From: Acidimicrobiales bacterium
GTDB taxonomy: Bacteria > Actinomycetota > Acidimicrobiia > Acidimicrobiales > UBA8592
DNA: 64,000 bases
NCBI GenBank assembly: GCA_030740795.1
Contig: JASLWO010000068.1
Coordinates: 1 to 64,000 of the forward strand
Reading direction: 5' to 3'
Position numbers and translations under genes: made by a program. This document shows, piece by piece, positions 16,107-47,107 of this stretch. Within the stretch, counting starts at the first letter, position 1. Each line of letters begins with the position of its first letter. Below the pieces are notes generated by a model that did not search any database, was not told the origin of the DNA, and saw nothing but the letters and a program-made list of their open reading frames with translations.

Positions 16107-18571
16107 CAGTGAGACCTATCTTCAAAGTCTTTGGGATGAGAAAATGGTAAATTCAATTCTTTGTTTAAATCCTCAACTATTTGATCCGTGTAACTATGGT
16201 CAATACCAATAAGTTCTAGTGGGTGCATTTTTTCTGTTTCTAGGTCTTTCTTCTTAGCTTCGGCGATTAAGGGGCACAGGAGAAGAGTCGGAACAAATAA
16301 GAGCAGGAATGTCCAACCGTCAATGACGTCTGTTATTCGAAAGATCCAAAAGCATGTCGTTGCTGCCACTCCTATTGACAAGAGCGTTCTATTGCTTTCT
16401 TCTTTGAGAATTCTATAGCCATCAAATATTTGAGCGGCGATTCCATTTGGGTTACGTCCCAATCCGATTCCCGCCATAGCAGGACCGAGGAATATAAAAA
16501 AGTCATGTATGACTGTGAAAAGCCAATCGAAACTTGACCAGTCATTTGCTAATTTATCCCAGAAGTCTCCCATGACAAGAAAAGCTGTTCCATAGAGGAT
16601 CCCTCCGATTAAGGCTCCACTGATATATCCGATGCCACTTACCACGGTAAGCATAAATAGTGCCAGTCCTTCAAAAACTGTAAATGGTGCGTCCTCCTGA
16701 ATGGCTCGCAAGTTGGACGCGTGCAGCGCTCCACCGAAGCCAGCGATGGCCGCTGCCAGAGTGAATACCGATAGTTTGAGTTTGAGCATGTTTAAGCCAA
16801 GCGTCGCGCATGCGGCGGGGCTGTCTTTCATTGCCGATAGTTGCCTGCCGTATGTGCTTCTTCTAAGGATTACAAGCAAAATAGCAATTAACGAGAACGT
16901 GATTGTTAGAAGTATCAACATAGCTGATTGATTTTTTCTAAAATCTATCCCAAAGAATCCTGGGCGGGGTATGTTCAGCGCCCCGTTATTGAATACATTG
17001 AACGTCACGTCTTTCCCGTCCCCTATAAATGGGATATCTAAGCTCAAAGTTTGTCGTTGCTTGTATACCATTTTGTCAACAAAGATAGCGAACGCAAAAG
17101 TCGCTAATCCCAAATAAAGACCACGTAATCGTAACGCTGGTACAGCGACGACGGCACCAATTGCCCCTGCAATAAGTGCAGCAACTATGAGTCCGCTAAA
17201 AGACATGCTTTCCCGACTTGCTATCCCCGTACCCGATGTTCCATCAAAAATAGTTACTAACCCAAGTACTCCAATCGTAAATACTGAAACCGCTCCCCAT
17301 AATCGCGCACGTGCAAGTCCAAATGCTGGGAAAACCAGATATCCAAAGAAAGCAGCTAAGAATACCGCCAGCGTAGCGAATCCTGCTCCAGTTTCTACTC
17401 CCGAACCAACATCAAATTGATAAGCGGATATTGCTCCGATTCCTGCGAAAGCAAGTGGAGCTAAGTTTATCTCTCCCGCATATCCAGTTAATAAAACCAT
17501 TGAAAGACCTATGATCGCGAATCCGATTCCTTTTGCAAGGCTAAATTCCCACTTGTTCTCGAGGATAAGTGTCAAGGCAGAAATGAATATTATAAAAATT
17601 GCTCCCCACGTAATTGATGACTTGATTGTGGGAACTTTGAAACTTTCGCGATATTTGGCTAGCGAACTTCCTCGTAATCGCTCTTGAGGTAGAAGTATGA
17701 GAATTACGAAGAGGATAACTACCGGTATCGCTGACCGTAATTCGGACAACCACGGCCACTTTCTTCCTGTTCCAGAAAGCCAATTCCAGTATGACACCGC
17801 TAAACCTATAACTAGACCCCCCATAAATGTTAAAGGAAGATTTTTCAGTCGACCAAATATTGCTGCCGCATAGGCATTAACTACAAGGAGCGTGAGCGCG
17901 AGAACATTAAGACTTCCTAGGAGCGGGGAAATGAGAATTCCTGCTACTGCTGCCATCATTGCTCCGATAGCCCAGCTCAGTAATGCTGCGAAATCTGGTT
18001 TTCCTCCATTGAGCTGAACGAGTTCTCGGTTATCAACTACTGCTCGCATTGTTATGCCAATTCTTGTATTCGTCAGAAGGAATTTCAGAAATAAGGCAAG
18101 CAATAATGCGGTGACGACCACGATTGTTTGATGTGTTGTTATGTAAGCGTCTCCTATTGACCATTTTGATTCCCTTCCGAAGAATGGTTCGGGGATCCGT
18201 GATTCTAGGTCTTGCCAGATCCAATTTGTTCCACCTATAAAAGCCAGCATAACTGCGATAGGTATCACCAATTTTGTTGTTTCGTTGGTACCTTCTAATC
18301 CGCGCATAACGACCAATTGAAGAAAAATTCCGATAATGGGTGCAACTACAAATAGTACAAACAACATGGCGATGGGTGCAGGCCATTGTCCTCCCCACCC
18401 GGCATCCCAACGTAACTGCCAGTAGATAAATGCTGTGAACATGCCAATCGCCCCATGAGCAAAATTGAATATGCCTGACGTCGTGTAGGTAACGACGAGC
18501 CCCGCTGAAGCGATTGAGTAGATAGAACCAATCGCTAATCCAACGACTGTGAACGTAACCAGTTCAGTCAT
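16106..18571 (-). CDS. Fused branched-chain-type ABC transporter permease (LivH-LivM fusion)
   Basis: One 821-aa ORF with LivH-like N half (GLAIGSIYSIASAGLVVTYTTSGIFNFAHGAIGMF) and LivM-like C half (GFAIIGLSMVLLTGYAGEINLAPLAFAGIGA; FTLAAAIAGFGGALHA). Confidence 0.9.
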   Translation of the reverse strand: MTELVTFTVVGLAIGSIYSIASAGLVVTYTTSGIFNFAHGAIGMFTAFIYWQLRWDAGWGGQWPAPIAMLFVLFVVAPIIGIFLQLVVMRGLEGTNETTKLVIPIAVMLAFIGGTNWIWQDLESRIPEPFFGRESKWSIGDAYITTHQTIVVVTALLLALFLKFLLTNTRIGITMRAVVDNRELVQLNGGKPDFAALLSWAIGAMMAAVAGILISPLLGSLNVLALTLLVVNAYAAAIFGRLKNLPLTFMGGLVIGLAVSYWNWLSGTGRKWPWLSELRSAIPVVILFVILILLPQERLRGSSLAKYRESFKVPTIKSSITWGAIFIIFISALTLILENKWEFSLAKGIGFAIIGLSMVLLTGYAGEINLAPLAFAGIGAISAYQFDVGSGVETGAGFATLAVFLAAFFGYLVFPAFGLARARLWGAVSVFTIGVLGLVTIFDGTSGTGIASRESMSFSGLIVAALIAGAIGAVVAVPALRLRGLYLGLATFAFAIFVDKMVYKQRQTLSLDIPFIGDGKDVTFNVFNNGALNIPRPGFFGIDFRKNQSAMLILLTITFSLIAILLVILRRSTYGRQLSAMKDSPAACATLGLNMLKLKLSVFTLAAAIAGFGGALHASNLRAIQEDAPFTVFEGLALFMLTVVSGIGYISGALIGGILYGTAFLVMGDFWDKLANDWSSFDWLFTVIHDFFIFLGPAMAGIGLGRNPNGIAAQIFDGYRILKEESNRTLLSIGVAATTCFWIFRITDVIDGWTFLLLFVPTLLLCPLIAEAKKKDLETEKMHPLELIGIDHSYTDQIVEDLNKELNLPFSHPKDFEDRSH

Positions 18572-31912: not shown

Positions 31913-31971
31913 TAGCAATTTCATCATTTAATGCACAGTGTTACTACTGAGAAGTGATCTATCCTAGGACA

Positions 31972-41008: not shown

Positions 41009-43801
41009 ATGGCATCAGGTAACAGTGTTCCGTCAAATAGGTACGATGCTTCTTTGGCTAACGTAATTGAACTTAAATGGCAGAAACGCTGGGAAGACGA
41101 AGGCACATACCATACTCCAAATCCATCTGGCCCTTTGGCAAGTAGCTCCGACAGAATCAACTTACCTAAATTGTTCATTATGGATATGTTCCCTTATCCC
41201 TCTGGAACGGGACTTCATGTCGGGCATCCGTTAGGGTTCATCGGAACCGATGTATATGCCCGTTATAAACGGATGACTGGATACAACGTTCTACACACTA
41301 TGGGTTACGATGCTTTCGGTTTACCAGCTGAAGAACATGCCCGTCAGACAGGTCAACATCCTCGGGAAAACACAAACTCAAATATTGACAACATGCGTGG
41401 TCAATTACGACGACTAGGGCTGGGGCACGACCAACGAAGATCTGTTGCCACCACAGATCTAGATTACTACCGGTGGACTCAATGGATTTTCCTTCAACTA
41501 TTCAATTCGTGGTACGACCATGAACAAAATTGTGCTCGCCCCATATCAGAACTTGAAAAAGCTCTATCAAATGGCTCACGGGCATTAGAAAGTGGCATTC
41601 TTTGGGATGACTTAAGCAACCATGAAAAAAAGGAGTTAATCAATTCATTCCGATTGGCTTACCTTGATGAAGCTCCAGTCAATTGGTGTCCCGCGCTTGG
41701 AACCGTTCTCGCCAATGAAGAAGTAACAGCAGAAGGACGAAGTGAACGCGGAAACCATCTGGTATACCGGCGACCATTGAAACAATGGATGATGCGCATT
41801 ACTGCATATGCTGATCGACTCCTTGAGGACTTGGAGAATCTGGATTGGAGTGATGCCATAAAAACAATGCAACGAAACTGGATAGGCAAAAGCAAAGGTG
41901 CCGAAATCGTTTTCCCAATTTCGGGTGAAGAAATCAGTGTCTTTACTACTCGGCCAGACACACTTTTCGGAGCAACGTACATGGTTTTAGCTCCCGAACA
42001 TCCCCTTATCGAGAAAATATCAGCCACTTCATGGCCTGACGGAACACCCGAAAAATGGCTGCAGGGATTTTCTAACCCGCAAGCAGCTATAGAGTCATAC
42101 CAACAATTAGCAGCGCAGAAATCTGATCTAGACAGACAAGAGAACAAAGAGAAAACAGGAGTTTTTCTCGGCGTTTACGCCACAGTCCCAGTTAATAACA
42201 AAAAAATACCTGTTTTCATATCTGATTATGTACTCATGGGGTACGGCACGGGAGCCATTATGGCTGTCCCAGGGCAAGATGAACGAGATTGGGAGTTCGC
42301 TGAACTCTTTAACTTGGAGATCGTGAGGACAGTTGAACCTCCACCTTCTTGGGATGGGAAAGCTTTTCCTGGAGATGGTCCAGCGATAAACAGTGATTTC
42401 TTAAACGGTCTAGGAGTTGACGATGCGAAATCAAAAATCATAGATTGGCTCGTCACATCAGGAAACGGAACAAAGAAAACCACATACAAATTAAGGGATT
42501 GGTTATTTAGCCGCCAACGCTACTGGGGTGAACCATTTCCGATCGTGTATGGCGATGATGGGCTTCCCATCGGAGTTGATGAAAGTCACCTTCCAGTAGA
42601 ACTTCCAGACCTAATAGACTGGGCTCCAAGAAGCTTAGAAGAAAACAGTGAGCCAGAACCGCCTTTAGGACGCTCTGCCGGTTGGGGAACCATTGAACTA
42701 AACCTTGGGAACGGTTTGCAAACCTACAAGCGCGAGCTTAATACCATGCCTCAGTGGGCTGGGTCGTGCTGGTATTACCTTCGTTACCTTGACCCAACTA
42801 ATGATGATGATTTCGTTGCGGCCGATATTGAACAATACTGGATGTCAGGAGACGTTGGTGGGGTCGATCTTTACGTTGGAGGAGTTGAACATGCAGTCCT
42901 TCACCTCCTCTACAGTAGATTTTGGCATAAGGTCCTTTACGATTTGGGACATGTAAGCTCTCTAGAACCATTTCAACGTCTATACAATCAAGGCTACATT
43001 CAAGCAGCGGCGTATCAGGATACTAGAGGCATATATGTTGAAGCTGCTGAAGTGACGGAAGAAAATGGCGGATTCGTATATAAAAATGAACCGGTAACAC
43101 GTTCTTTCGGAAAAATGGGCAAATCACTCAAGAATTCTGTCACACCAGATGAGATGTACGATGAGTTCGGGGCTGACACACTACGCCTCTACGAAATGTT
43201 CATGGGACCCTTAGACCAAGATCGACCGTGGGAAACTAAATCTGTTGTCGGCTCACAGCGCTTAATTCAAAGAGTGTGGAGAAATCTGGTGGACGAAGAA
43301 ACAGGCAACCTAAATGTTTCTGACGAAGAAACCTCAAAAGAGTTACTCCAACTTCTACACCGAACTATTCAAGCCGTGAATGACGACATGGAGAACCTGA
43401 GATTTAATACAGCTATAGCCAGGATTACTGAATTAAATAATGAAATCACGAAAATTCCTACCAGCACACCTAGGAAAGTAGCGGAAACCTTAGTACTCCT
43501 TTTGTCACCGCTAGCACCCCATATAGCAGAAGAGTTATGGGAAAAACTCGGCAACGAAACTAGTGTTGTTTATGCCCCTTTCCCGGAAGCCGATAAGGCG
43601 TTCTTGATTGAAGACTCAATTGAAATTCCAATTCAAATAAATGGCAAAGTAAAAAGCAAGATAATTGTGCCAAGCGGATCCACAGTTGAAACGATCCGTG
43701 AAACCGCGTTACAGGACCCAAAAATTAATTCGATCCTGTCTGGAGAGAAGATTCGAAAGGAAATAATAATTGAGGGCAAACTTGTGAATTTTGTATTCTA
43801 G
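41009..43801 (+). CDS. leuS: Leucyl-tRNA synthetase
   Basis: MDMFPYPSGTGLHVGHPLGFIGTDVYARYKRMTGYNVLHTMGYDAFGLPAE; KMGKSLKNSVTPDE (KMSKS variant KMGKS). Confidence 0.98.
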   Translation: MASGNSVPSNRYDASLANVIELKWQKRWEDEGTYHTPNPSGPLASSSDRINLPKLFIMDMFPYPSGTGLHVGHPLGFIGTDVYARYKRMTGYNVLHTMGYDAFGLPAEEHARQTGQHPRENTNSNIDNMRGQLRRLGLGHDQRRSVATTDLDYYRWTQWIFLQLFNSWYDHEQNCARPISELEKALSNGSRALESGILWDDLSNHEKKELINSFRLAYLDEAPVNWCPALGTVLANEEVTAEGRSERGNHLVYRRPLKQWMMRITAYADRLLEDLENLDWSDAIKTMQRNWIGKSKGAEIVFPISGEEISVFTTRPDTLFGATYMVLAPEHPLIEKISATSWPDGTPEKWLQGFSNPQAAIESYQQLAAQKSDLDRQENKEKTGVFLGVYATVPVNNKKIPVFISDYVLMGYGTGAIMAVPGQDERDWEFAELFNLEIVRTVEPPPSWDGKAFPGDGPAINSDFLNGLGVDDAKSKIIDWLVTSGNGTKKTTYKLRDWLFSRQRYWGEPFPIVYGDDGLPIGVDESHLPVELPDLIDWAPRSLEENSEPEPPLGRSAGWGTIELNLGNGLQTYKRELNTMPQWAGSCWYYLRYLDPTNDDDFVAADIEQYWMSGDVGGVDLYVGGVEHAVLHLLYSRFWHKVLYDLGHVSSLEPFQRLYNQGYIQAAAYQDTRGIYVEAAEVTEENGGFVYKNEPVTRSFGKMGKSLKNSVTPDEMYDEFGADTLRLYEMFMGPLDQDRPWETKSVVGSQRLIQRVWRNLVDEETGNLNVSDEETSKELLQLLHRTIQAVNDDMENLRFNTAIARITELNNEITKIPTSTPRKVAETLVLLLSPLAPHIAEELWEKLGNETSVVYAPFPEADKAFLIEDSIEIPIQINGKVKSKIIVPSGSTVETIRETALQDPKINSILSGEKIRKEIIIEGKLVNFVF

Positions 43802-43821
43802 ATTCTTTGAGACCTTACATG

Positions 43822-43833
43822 TAGGGTTGTCCT
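43822..43833 (+). promoter_or_regulatory. -10-like hexamer TAGGGT + 6 nt directly preceding ATG 43834 (leaderless start)
   Basis: TAGGGT (43822-43827) TGTCCT then ATG; same TANNNT-N6-start layout recurs across this window. Confidence 0.55.
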
Positions 43834-44709
43834 ATGGGAAGAGATGATAGATCTGGTTTATTCCTCGCATATCCAGGAATCGGAGAACGATTCGGTGACC
43901 TGTATGGTACTTTCTGGTGCGAAGGCAACCTGCCCCATGATTTGAAAGAAGCCGTGAGGCTTCGCAATGCGCAGTTAACAGATTGCGGATATTGAAAGAA
44001 TGTTAGATTTTCGCTCGCCCGTGAGGCGGGATTCACAGAAAAAGAAGCTTCTCGAATCAACGCTGGCCGGTTGCCAAACGACTTACCCAAACATTGGCTA
44101 CCAATACTTAAATTTACCGACCACTTCATAAACACTCCTTCTCCCCTGCCACACGAGCTTTTCGCAGAGATCACAGATATCTACACCAAAGCAGAAATAA
44201 CTGAAATAGCTCTCGGATTAGGACTTTTCCATGGATTTTCTAAAATGCTGATTGCACTAGGCCGGGAGCCCGTCGAAATGGATACTACAATCATTCCCAC
44301 ACCTACAGCTCCGATGACTAAATTAGAAATTCAAGTGCCTGATTCGCATCCAGTAGCTTCTCTTCTTTCACCCACTCCTGATCTAAGGGATCGTTGGATC
44401 GATCTTGAAAATACTCTTTGGAAGATGAACAATTATCCAAGGATGGAACTTGAAAAAATCCGTTCAAGATTGGCGACTTTATTAGATGTAAGTCTTGAAT
44501 ACGAAAATTTTTATCACAGTGGTGACTCATCTCGAGATTTGCAGAATATTTCGGATCAATTCGTTTTTGACATTCGCTCTTTCACGGATGAACAAAGGCG
44601 TGCGATCATTGACGAATTTGGGTCTGATGGCCTTTTAAATCTGATGATTTGCCTAGCGCTCTATGATGGAATTTTTAGAGTAGCCACAACCCTTGATTCA
44701 TGGCATTGA
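43834..44709 (+). CDS. AhpD/carboxymuconolactone decarboxylase-family selenoprotein; TGA at 43993-43995 read as Sec (CxxU)
   Basis: One reading frame: MGRDDRSGLFLAYPGIGERFGDLYGTFWCEGNLPHDLKEAVRLRNAQLTDCGY[TGA]KNVRFSLAREAGFTEKEASRINAGRLPNDLPKHW..., continuing into the listed ORF 44071-44709. Conserved AhpD/CMD motif RLRNAQL-x-x-C-x-x-C-x-N-x-R-F spans the TGA, which replaces the second Cys. Confidence 0.85.
44014..44030 (+). promoter_or_regulatory. Candidate bacterial SECIS hairpin
   Basis: CTCGCC-CGTGA-GGCGGG: 6-bp stem (one U-G) with 5-nt loop having G at position 2; loop starts 24 nt after the TGA codon. Confidence 0.7.
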
Positions 44710-45408
44710 CTTTGTGCTGTAAGCGACACAATATCCACCTCCGATTTGAGACCGATATTCGTAGCTGAGTCCTGAAGAACACTTTTCGTTAACTCCTACG
44801 ATTTCCCAAACGCTAGCGTCTTCTCTCCCATCACAGGGAACTTCTTCGACTGGTGCAATGTCAATACATAGCTTCGGCGTTTCATCAGATACTTCAGGTA
44901 CATATACCGCATTTGATTTGGTGGTATTTCCGCCGCCCCCGATAACGAAACCAGCAATAACTACGGCTACAACGAGAAACAACAAAAGGAAAAGGGGTAG
45001 TGGTTTCATCAATTTAGCAAACCCTCGTATTTCCATTTCTTTCAGGGATGCAACTTTCGTTTTTCGATCTTCCCTAGGTTCTTGAGCTATTAGAAACTCT
45101 TGCGTGATTTTTCTATTTGTCTGGCGAAGCGCATCTTCCATGATTCCTTTGTTAAATGATTCATCATATTCTTTTCTTTTATCTGGATTAGAAATAATGT
45201 TCCAAGCGACATTTATGTCTTTCATTTCTCTTTCACGCTTTTCCAATTCAAGTTCCGTGAGTCCCGAATTATTGTCAGGATGTAGAAGTCGTGCCTTCTT
45301 CAGGTATTCCCTCTTAACTACATCTGGTTCAGCTTTGGGATCAACGCCGAGAGTCTCATAATGGTTCTTAATTGATGGCACTTTCATATTTCCTGTCATG
45401 ACTTCCAC
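44698..45408 (-). CDS. J-domain protein with a transmembrane segment
   Basis: YETLGVDPKAEPDVVKREYLKKARLLHPDNNSG (HPD motif)...AWNIISNPDKRKEYDE; TM segment PLPLFLLLFLVVAVVIAGFVIGGG. Confidence 0.85.
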   Translation of the reverse strand: MEVMTGNMKVPSIKNHYETLGVDPKAEPDVVKREYLKKARLLHPDNNSGLTELELEKREREMKDINVAWNIISNPDKRKEYDESFNKGIMEDALRQTNRKITQEFLIAQEPREDRKTKVASLKEMEIRGFAKLMKPLPLFLLLFLVVAVVIAGFVIGGGGNTTKSNAVYVPEVSDETPKLCIDIAPVEEVPCDGREDASVWEIVGVNEKCSSGLSYEYRSQIGGGYCVAYSTKSMP

Positions 45409-45459
45409 TGGTTAGATTAATCCGTAGACTATTTAGAAGCACCATCGGGGTATTTAAAC

Positions 45460-45777
45460 ATGAGTCACCTAGTCGTTTGCAAACAATGCAACGAGAGTGA
45501 AGATCTAGAAGGTTTCACTGAAAACGATCAGATCTCTGTCCGCTGTATGAAATGTGGACTTACCTGGGTTCGCGACCTCACCCCAAAATGTTCAAAATGT
45601 GAATCGACTAAAGTTAGACCCGCTTTTGAAGCAATTGTTGCTAAATCTCGCGGAACCCAACTTTCTGTACAGAGTTCAAAGTTGATTTACCTATGCGAGG
45701 ATTGTGATGCCTCGCGTCTTAAGGACTACCAAACACGAAATTCTCCAATAATGCCTAAAGACCTCCCAACTACGTAA
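45460..45777 (+). CDS. Small multi-zinc-ribbon protein, unknown
   Basis: CKQC, CMKC, CSKC, CEDC pairs in 105 aa. Confidence 0.6.
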   Translation: MSHLVVCKQCNESEDLEGFTENDQISVRCMKCGLTWVRDLTPKCSKCESTKVRPAFEAIVAKSRGTQLSVQSSKLIYLCEDCDASRLKDYQTRNSPIMPKDLPTT

Positions 45778-47107
45778 CCTCTTTATACAAAGCGTTAGCA
45801 AGGTTTTCTAAGCCCGCCACTCGGGAACCTTTTACAAGAACTACCGAATTTGACCCAAGCAAATCTCCCTCATCAAGCTTCATTCCGGCTTCCTCCCAAG
45901 AAGAGACGTGAACACCGCCGTATTCCTCTACCCCTACCGAAATAACATGTACACCTGCAGTTTTGAGTCGATTCCCTATCGAAGCGTGTTCAGCTTCACT
46001 TCTATCTCCAAGCTCTGCCATAAGTCCCAGAACAGCTATTTTGATTTCAGCTTCGCTCAGAAGAAGAGTATCAATTGCTGCATTCATAGAAGCTGGATTA
46101 GCATTGTAGGAATCATTAATAACGAGCGTTCCATCAGCCAAATGTCTCAGATCCATACGCATTGGTGACAGTTCAATTTGGTTAAGTGACTCAACCAATG
46201 CACTCTGTTCTACACCGAGGGCCAATCCCACCGAAACTGCTGCAAGGGCGTTAGAAATGTTATGCACGCCTGGAATATTTAAATCCACCACTTCAGAACC
46301 CCACGGTGTTGTGAGTGTAAATGAGGCGCACATGTTTTTTCCCATGACTATATCGCTTGCAACAACATCGCCAAAAGAGTCAACACTGAATGCCAACACA
46401 TTTGCTTGTGTCCTTGACCTCATTTCCCATACAAGGGGGTCGTCGGCATTAAGTATCGCTGTGCCATGACTTGGTAAACTCCCAATGAGTTCACCCTTGG
46501 TCAAAGCAATTTGTGCTTCGCTTTCAAAAAACTCTGTATGAGCGGCGCTTACCTGTGTCACCACTCCAATATCTGGAGATGCTATTTCACAAAGTTCTCT
46601 AATTTGACCCGGTCCTCTCGCCCCCATTTCCAAGACGACAACGCATGGTCCTATTGAGTCATCGCATGAAAGAAGGGTAACTGGGACACCTATCTCGTTA
46701 TTATATGAGAACTTACTTACGTGCGTTGGGTAGGTACCCGACAAGCAAGCATAAGCAATGTCTTTCGTAGTTGTTTTCCCGACCGATCCAGTAATTCCAA
46801 TAACGTTTCCATCAATGCGCCCCCTTGCATGCTTTGCTAAGTCTTGAAGCGCTACGAGTGTGTTTTCTACTTGCACAGCAGTTCCAACTGCGTTTCCATG
46901 ACTGAATAGGTGCGCTCCAGCACCTTGTTCAAATGCCTCACGCACATAATCGTGCCCATCTCTTTCTGCGATAAGCGGTATGAAAATCTCCCCTCTCTGC
47001 AGAGTCCTTGTATCAATAGACACGCCGTTAACACTATGAGATCCATCGCCAAATACCTTTCCCTTACAGGCATCAGCTATTTCCCTAATCGTGAATTTCA
47101 TTGACAC
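45770..47107 (-). CDS. murF: UDP-N-acetylmuramoyl-tripeptide--D-alanyl-D-alanine ligase
   Basis: GITGSVGKTTTKDI, VLEMGARGPGQIRELCEIASPDIGVVTQVSAAHTEFF, INDSYNANPASMNAAI. Confidence 0.95.
   Translation of the reverse strand: MSMKFTIREIADACKGKVFGDGSHSVNGVSIDTRTLQRGEIFIPLIAERDGHDYVREAFEQGAGAHLFSHGNAVGTAVQVENTLVALQDLAKHARGRIDGNVIGITGSVGKTTTKDIAYACLSGTYPTHVSKFSYNNEIGVPVTLLSCDDSIGPCVVVLEMGARGPGQIRELCEIASPDIGVVTQVSAAHTEFFESEAQIALTKGELIGSLPSHGTAILNADDPLVWEMRSRTQANVLAFSVDSFGDVVASDIVMGKNMCASFTLTTPWGSEVVDLNIPGVHNISNALAAVSVGLALGVEQSALVESLNQIELSPMRMDLRHLADGTLVINDSYNANPASMNAAIDTLLLSEAEIKIAVLGLMAELGDRSEAEHASIGNRLKTAGVHVISVGVEEYGGVHVSSWEEAGMKLDEGDLLGSNSVVLVKGSRVAGLENLANALYKEVT

Follow-up and report, generated by a model that had tools for sequence, protein, structure and literature searches.

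A probable AhpD/CMD-type selenoprotein with a fused cysteine-less domain in an Acidimicrobiales bacterium

The gene described here very probably encodes a selenoprotein, in which the UGA at codon 54 would be read as selenocysteine (Sec), the product being an oxidoreductase of the AhpD/CMD type whose second domain is a fused partner and would make up half of a pseudo-heterodimer. It lies in a window of 64,000 nucleotides (contig C68) from a genome of 2.05 Mb in 72 contigs, 90% complete, referred to below as G000. The preliminary description of this DNA had interpreted the in-frame TGA as a Sec codon; the second CMD-like domain, and its counterpart in a neighbouring gene of many relatives, are absent from that interpretation. 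The features concerned are collected in Table 1.

Table 1. Coordinates in the window of the predicted selenoprotein gene, its parts and its upstream neighbour
Feature	Position	Strand	Remarks
leuS	41009..43801	+	930 codons; stop 32 bases before the selenoprotein start
Predicted selenoprotein gene	43834..44709	+	291 residues, predicted Sec at 54, terminal stop TGA
Domain 1, catalytic CMD/AhpD-like	43834..44330	+	residues 1 to about 165; PF02627, invariant columns, model helices
Redox motif C51-G-Y-U54	43984..43995	+	TGA (predicted Sec) at 43993-43995
SECIS hairpin CTCGCC-CGTGA-GGCGGG	44014..44030	+	codon constraint, compensatory pairs
Hairpin parts	44014-44019; 44020-44024; 44025-44030		CTCGCC; loop CGTGA; GGCGGG
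Domain 2, cysteine-less CMD-like	44331..44706	+	residues about 166-291; orthologous to the upstream partner gene of single-domain relatives

From its ATG, the frame runs through 292 codons, stop included, to the terminal TGA at 44707-44709, with a single internal TGA, whilst the ORF visible under the standard code begins only at 44071, on a TTG. Proteins of the relatives start with MGR[DE]D[RK]SGLF, and three codons upstream of the start the frame closes in three species of the genus, both of which support the ATG chosen in the preliminary description. What the latter said of the rest of the frame is equally borne out: the TGA falls exactly on the second Cys position of the CxxC of a CMD/AhpD domain, the frame is open from there to its end, and it is continuous across the TGA, as the PF02627 match spans this codon and homologs continue past it.

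Homologs at E <= 1e-8 occur in 13 of 148 genomes of the order, and all 13 have one internal TGA, at the same codon. A motif allowing any TGN matched 34 of 397 genomes of the order, every one of the 34 reading TGA, and its reversed-pattern control matched none of the 397. A DNA pattern that does require TGA gave 117 further loci from a species collection; since the codon is imposed there and the downstream frame is free, this set tests the downstream frame, which, followed as far as the ORF or the available sequence extends, is open and homologous in 117 of 117, and none of these relatives shows the downstream decay that would have spoken against Sec. Scans of genome and viral contigs with protein patterns gave no matches, probably because such patterns back-translate Sec as Cys codons. 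When aligned with a Cys homolog, P. aeruginosa AhpD (7xw1/2ijc), ...NGCAYCVNMH... falls on ...TDCGYUKNVR..., so that the second Cys corresponds to U54, which is the alignment of C to U anticipated earlier.

These observations weigh directly on the two readings in which the TGA is not a Sec codon. A pseudogene, or a sequencing error changing a TGC or TGT codon to TGA, would agree with the single base that separates these codons and with the cut in the standard ORF; it is, however, refuted by the conservation of the same TGA across species, and the frame that stays open and homologous in the loci selected for TGA, as well as the synonymous constraint on the loop codons described below, make it extremely improbable. 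A reassigned code, with TGA standing for Trp, Gly or Cys throughout, would open the frame whichever residue is inserted, but TGA terminates 18 of the 52 long ORFs of the window, the selenoprotein gene among them, and a code in which TGA serves as terminator is not reassigned. This refutes the second reading, which becomes virtually impossible in a genome with a tRNA-Sec and the full Sec pathway.

The Sec reading had led to the prediction that selA, selB, selD and a tRNA-Sec should be encoded elsewhere in the genome, and all four were found by search. The tRNA-Sec lies at C58:17183-17274 (66 bits; anticodon UCA by ARAGORN), selA at C58:4590-5723 (376 bits with the full SelA model, whereas PF12390, the N-terminal SelA domain, has no match in the genome) and selB at C58:2876-4558 (290 bits, or 317 bits with its neighbour in frame), selA, selB and selC being on one contig; selD is at C26:2415-3335, on the minus strand (360 bits). 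In G000 selD is itself a selenoprotein gene, with its own in-frame TGA in ..GAGUGCK.. (L186/L021). Across the order, selA is present in 12 of the 13 homolog-carrying genomes, compared to 87 of 148 genomes overall. One carrier (G144; 83% complete, 520 contigs) has no selA and no tRNA-Sec above cut-off, a gap that could amount to one missing contig, given that selA, selB and selC share one in G000. With this machinery, SelB and tRNA-Sec would insert Sec at codon 54 under the direction of the hairpin downstream.

That hairpin is present as previously described. It begins 18 nt downstream of the TGA, and its loop G-U, at 44021-44022, lies 25-26 nt after it, inside the range of about 16-37 nt for the loop G of a bacterial SECIS. 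On its own it is unremarkable, as single-sequence folding compared to shuffles gives z = 0.15 for 43990-44045 and z = -1.4 for a short stretch, and its significance comes only from family-wide comparison; the earlier claim of a SECIS thus stands on codon constraint and compensatory changes within the family, and not on folding of the single sequence. Arg at U+9 is written CGT in 69 of 78 non-identical members, against 11% CGT for Arg elsewhere in the same genes (p about 1e-55, by a statistic that ignores relatedness), and the 21 members with Ala-Gly-Ala at U+6 to U+8 all use the codons GCA-GGT-GCG. In the CGT register the loop C-GU-GA is at 28-32 nt from the T of TGA, and in the GCA-GGT-GCG register A-GG-U is at 21-24 nt. 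For the first of these, 85% of stem cells are paired, whereas no shuffle out of 500 exceeds 80% and sliding the partner gives 38-57%; two stem pairs show changes on both sides, C-G becoming U-A in 15 and 23 of 70 sequences. Synonymous shuffles gene by gene give a mean z of -0.88 against -0.02 to -0.37 in control windows, values that are individually weak and come from related rows. Some loci (e.g., L058, L072, L081) alter both sides of the stem, from CGC-GGTC-GCG to CAC-GGTC-GTG. The apical loop is found in either of two registers, about 6-7 nt apart, with the frame ungapped.

Domain 1 matches PF02627 (CMD) over residues 24-74 (7.7e-7; 29.5 bits against a gathering cut-off of 23). Its conserved residues are E39, R42, R44, C51, U54, R58 and G66, among which E39, C51 and U54 are invariant in the family alignment. 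TIGR00778, the AhpD core domain, reaches 20.1 bits, under its cut-off of 27.8, and the His that marks AhpD proper, four residues after the second Cys, is replaced by Arg58; Arg at this position is also common to many Cys relatives. In AhpD, the second Cys of the CxxC is peroxidatic and does the attacking, and the first Cys resolves. In the selenoprotein, U54 would most likely be the attacking selenolate in place of that second Cys. Either an organic hydroperoxide or a disulfide would oxidise it, after which C51 would act as the resolving residue in a Se-S bond, to be reopened by a cellular dithiol reductant, with E39, Y53 and R58 shaping the active site, and the product would act as a thiol-selenol oxidoreductase of the AhpD/CMD type. 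In the preliminary description this was a redox selenoprotein of peroxiredoxin or disulfide type: the selenoprotein part is supported here, whilst the reaction, peroxidase or disulfide reductase, and its substrate are what we infer from the above.

Domain 2 is all-helical and without CxxC in the AlphaFold2 model. With a profile of this domain made from 14 fused proteins, a separate ORF is recognised immediately upstream of the single-domain CxxU genes, on the same strand. Amongst the 95 loci for which 700 or more upstream bases are available, only L040, L105, L113 and L142 are without this partner gene; leaving out L040 and L105, because they are truncated loci with fused-type sequence, the partner is upstream in 91 of 93 evaluable loci, where stop and start often overlap. 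Scored against both domains, 85 of 93 partners are closer to domain 2 and all 96 single-domain Sec proteins closer to domain 1. The partners are related to CMD proteins: PF02627 matches 7 of 10 sampled ones, and comparison of the partner profile with that of the Sec domain gives 98.8% probability. In the partner rows inspected, the active-site position never carries a CxxC; 6 of 93 partners do have a C-x-x-C at another place near the N-terminus. Fused genes have domain 2 only inside the gene, with leuS upstream instead of the partner. Single-domain relatives with a partner are found in several phyla (Actinomycetota, Chloroflexota, Pseudomonadota and Myxococcota). In a tree of few columns and rough bootstrap, a branch supported at 99/95 separates the fused proteins from the rest, and a second origin appears in 0 of 200 bootstrap trees, which points to a fusion that arose once, with the active domain first.

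Domain 2 would then be the fused form of the partner subunit that most relatives encode upstream. It would stand where an AhpD-type dimer has its second protomer, and one chain would therefore, like Sestrin, amount to a pseudo-heterodimer with only one active site, its two domains presumably packed as a pseudo-dimer. For the family at large, we lean, with some reserve, towards an obligate heteromer in which a CxxU CMD subunit pairs with a cysteine-less CMD subunit dedicated to it; the two genes would be neighbours in the four phyla and have merged once, in marine Acidimicrobiia, to give a single Sestrin-ordered chain.

As to the origin of some of the sequences in the tree, one locus titled Acidobacteria (L058) nests among Actinomycetota rows, by horizontal transfer or a binning error. 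Three others, titled Ferrithrix, Klebsiella pneumoniae and Bifidobacterium breve (L056, L065 and L081), group with uncultured Acidimicrobiia or Gammaproteobacteria, and the titles of these metagenome-assembled genomes look mislabelled.

The upstream neighbour leuS is conserved in front of the fused genes, and the two could form an operon. The order leuS, selenoprotein, DnaJ-like protein, small Cys-rich protein and MurF-like ligase (41009-47107 in the window) recurs at loci L183, L185 and L184, from three species of the genus or family. Clustering of neighbours across the family's loci reveals no shared pathway except the partner gene, and recurrent neighbours differ between lineages. G000 has two further CxxU genes of CMD/AhpD-like type. 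One is on the minus strand (L181; C2:8000-16000), reads ..ARMRIAQINDCHI-TGA-LDTRSASAMQQGL.. and has a hairpin after the TGA; the other, a paralog on the plus strand (L182; C56:17001-37000, about 17079-17970), reads ..VRLRCAEHHDCHT-TGA-RSLRLAV.. and has a domain-2-like cysteine-less CMD ORF directly ahead, i.e., the order partner, then CxxU. Other CxxU- or UxxC-like TGAs inspected in the window were not convincing; the one at 31948 is followed closely by the GTG with which an ordinary ORF starts.

The AlphaFold2 model, made from 13 sequences, has a pLDDT of 86.9 and a pTM of 0.89 (the five models span 61.7 to 86.9). Its best full-length PDB matches are to human Sestrin2 (5dj4, 5t0n, 9lvj), with E from 6.5e-5, TMq 0.67-0.74, rmsd 9-10 A and about 10% identity. 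In published descriptions of Sestrin2, two AhpD-like domains are related by pseudo-symmetry; the N-terminal domain is active via Cys125, and the catalytic Cys is missing from the C-terminal domain (PMC4674687). The selenoprotein has the same two domains per chain in the same order of active and inactive, with Sec in contrast to the single Cys125. Even so, no Sestrin is among the PDB profile matches at E <= 10, and inspection of the corresponding alignment region finds no conserved acidic motif like the electronegative hinge of Sestrin (DDYDY type), so the resemblance is one of architecture and not of Sestrin membership, and is quite possibly convergent. The fused Sestrin-like AhpD proteins of Corynebacterium ureicelerivorans and Comamonas aquatica (PMC11429811) also join an AhpD-like domain that has the catalytic pair to one that lacks it, but in them the N-terminal domain is the cysteine-less one, which is also the order of the two-gene relatives, whereas the selenoprotein has its active domain first, and with Sec. 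Single-domain matches are P. aeruginosa PA0269 (7xw1, 2ijc, 2o4d) and Atu0492 (2gmy), which share the fold of domain 1 (TMt about 0.83 for 2ijc_F and 2gmy_A) and align their CxxC with the CxxU, but have Cys for Sec, a single domain, and His at the position of Arg58.

This last difference is one reason to consider that the selenoprotein does not handle peroxide, and works instead as a disulfide reductase, as an enzyme of the dehalogenase type or in selenium/thiol transfer. With Arg58 in place of the proton-relay His of AhpD, the reaction may differ and AhpD-like peroxidase chemistry may not carry over; moreover, the debrominase Bmp8, a CMD relative, is among the profile matches, and neighbours that change with the lineage give no clue to a pathway. 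The invariant E39, C51 and U54, however, retain the AhpD arrangement, and the closest solved relatives are AhpD-type proteins. We regard a non-peroxide role as rather unlikely. Somewhat less doubtful, though still tentative, is the idea that domain 2 goes beyond a structural half-dimer and is a functional domain of its own, binding a ligand or a protein like Sesn-C. Such a role would suit the absence of CxxC, the helix region after the active-site position, shortened as in Sesn-C, and the retention of the domain in nearly every locus, as partner or as fusion; the absence of a conserved acidic hinge goes against it.

CxxU selenoproteins of CMD/AhpD type are already known, as the preliminary description had it: CMD-domain and AhpD-like members come from the Sargasso Sea in 2005 (PMC1088965) and from GOS in 2008 (‘AhpD-like 2’, pfam02627; PMC2398784), and are included in a 2026 review (PMC13188914). 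In the parts of these three sources that deal with them, the marine proteins share with ours PF02627, Sec as the second residue of the CxxU and a bacterial SECIS, but they are listed there as single families by motif, with no mention in those parts of a cysteine-less partner or a fused second domain. Similarity is also detectable to the (seleno)proteins of NCBIfam NF053654 (GroundWater_YciW), NF041047 (GSU3128) and NF041238 (AhpD_rel_CFYUT). NF053654 matches 12 of 13 family members (best 1.4e-16); the window protein scores 14.7 bits against it (cut-off 310) and 14.6 against NF041047 (cut-off 110), and no current NCBIfam model names the selenoprotein above cut-off. Within a limited set of open-licence papers, neither the Sec fusion in Sestrin order nor the cysteine-less partner that accompanies nearly every single-domain gene appears to have been described.

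Under the standard code this gene would be mis-annotated as a 212-residue protein and its catalytic half therefore lost in annotation, and its relatives would fare likewise. The two SECIS registers, whose loops are some 22 and 29 nt away from the U of the UGA, are a natural experiment on how far SelB tolerates displacement of the hairpin. The near-invariant pairing of Sec and cysteine-less CMD proteins, together with their single fusion, offers a model, open to testing, of how an AhpD-type enzyme can be asymmetric, and independently parallels the pairing of an active and an inactive domain in Sestrin; if the obligate heteromer proposed above is true, it would be a selenium-based bacterial counterpart of the Sestrin architecture.
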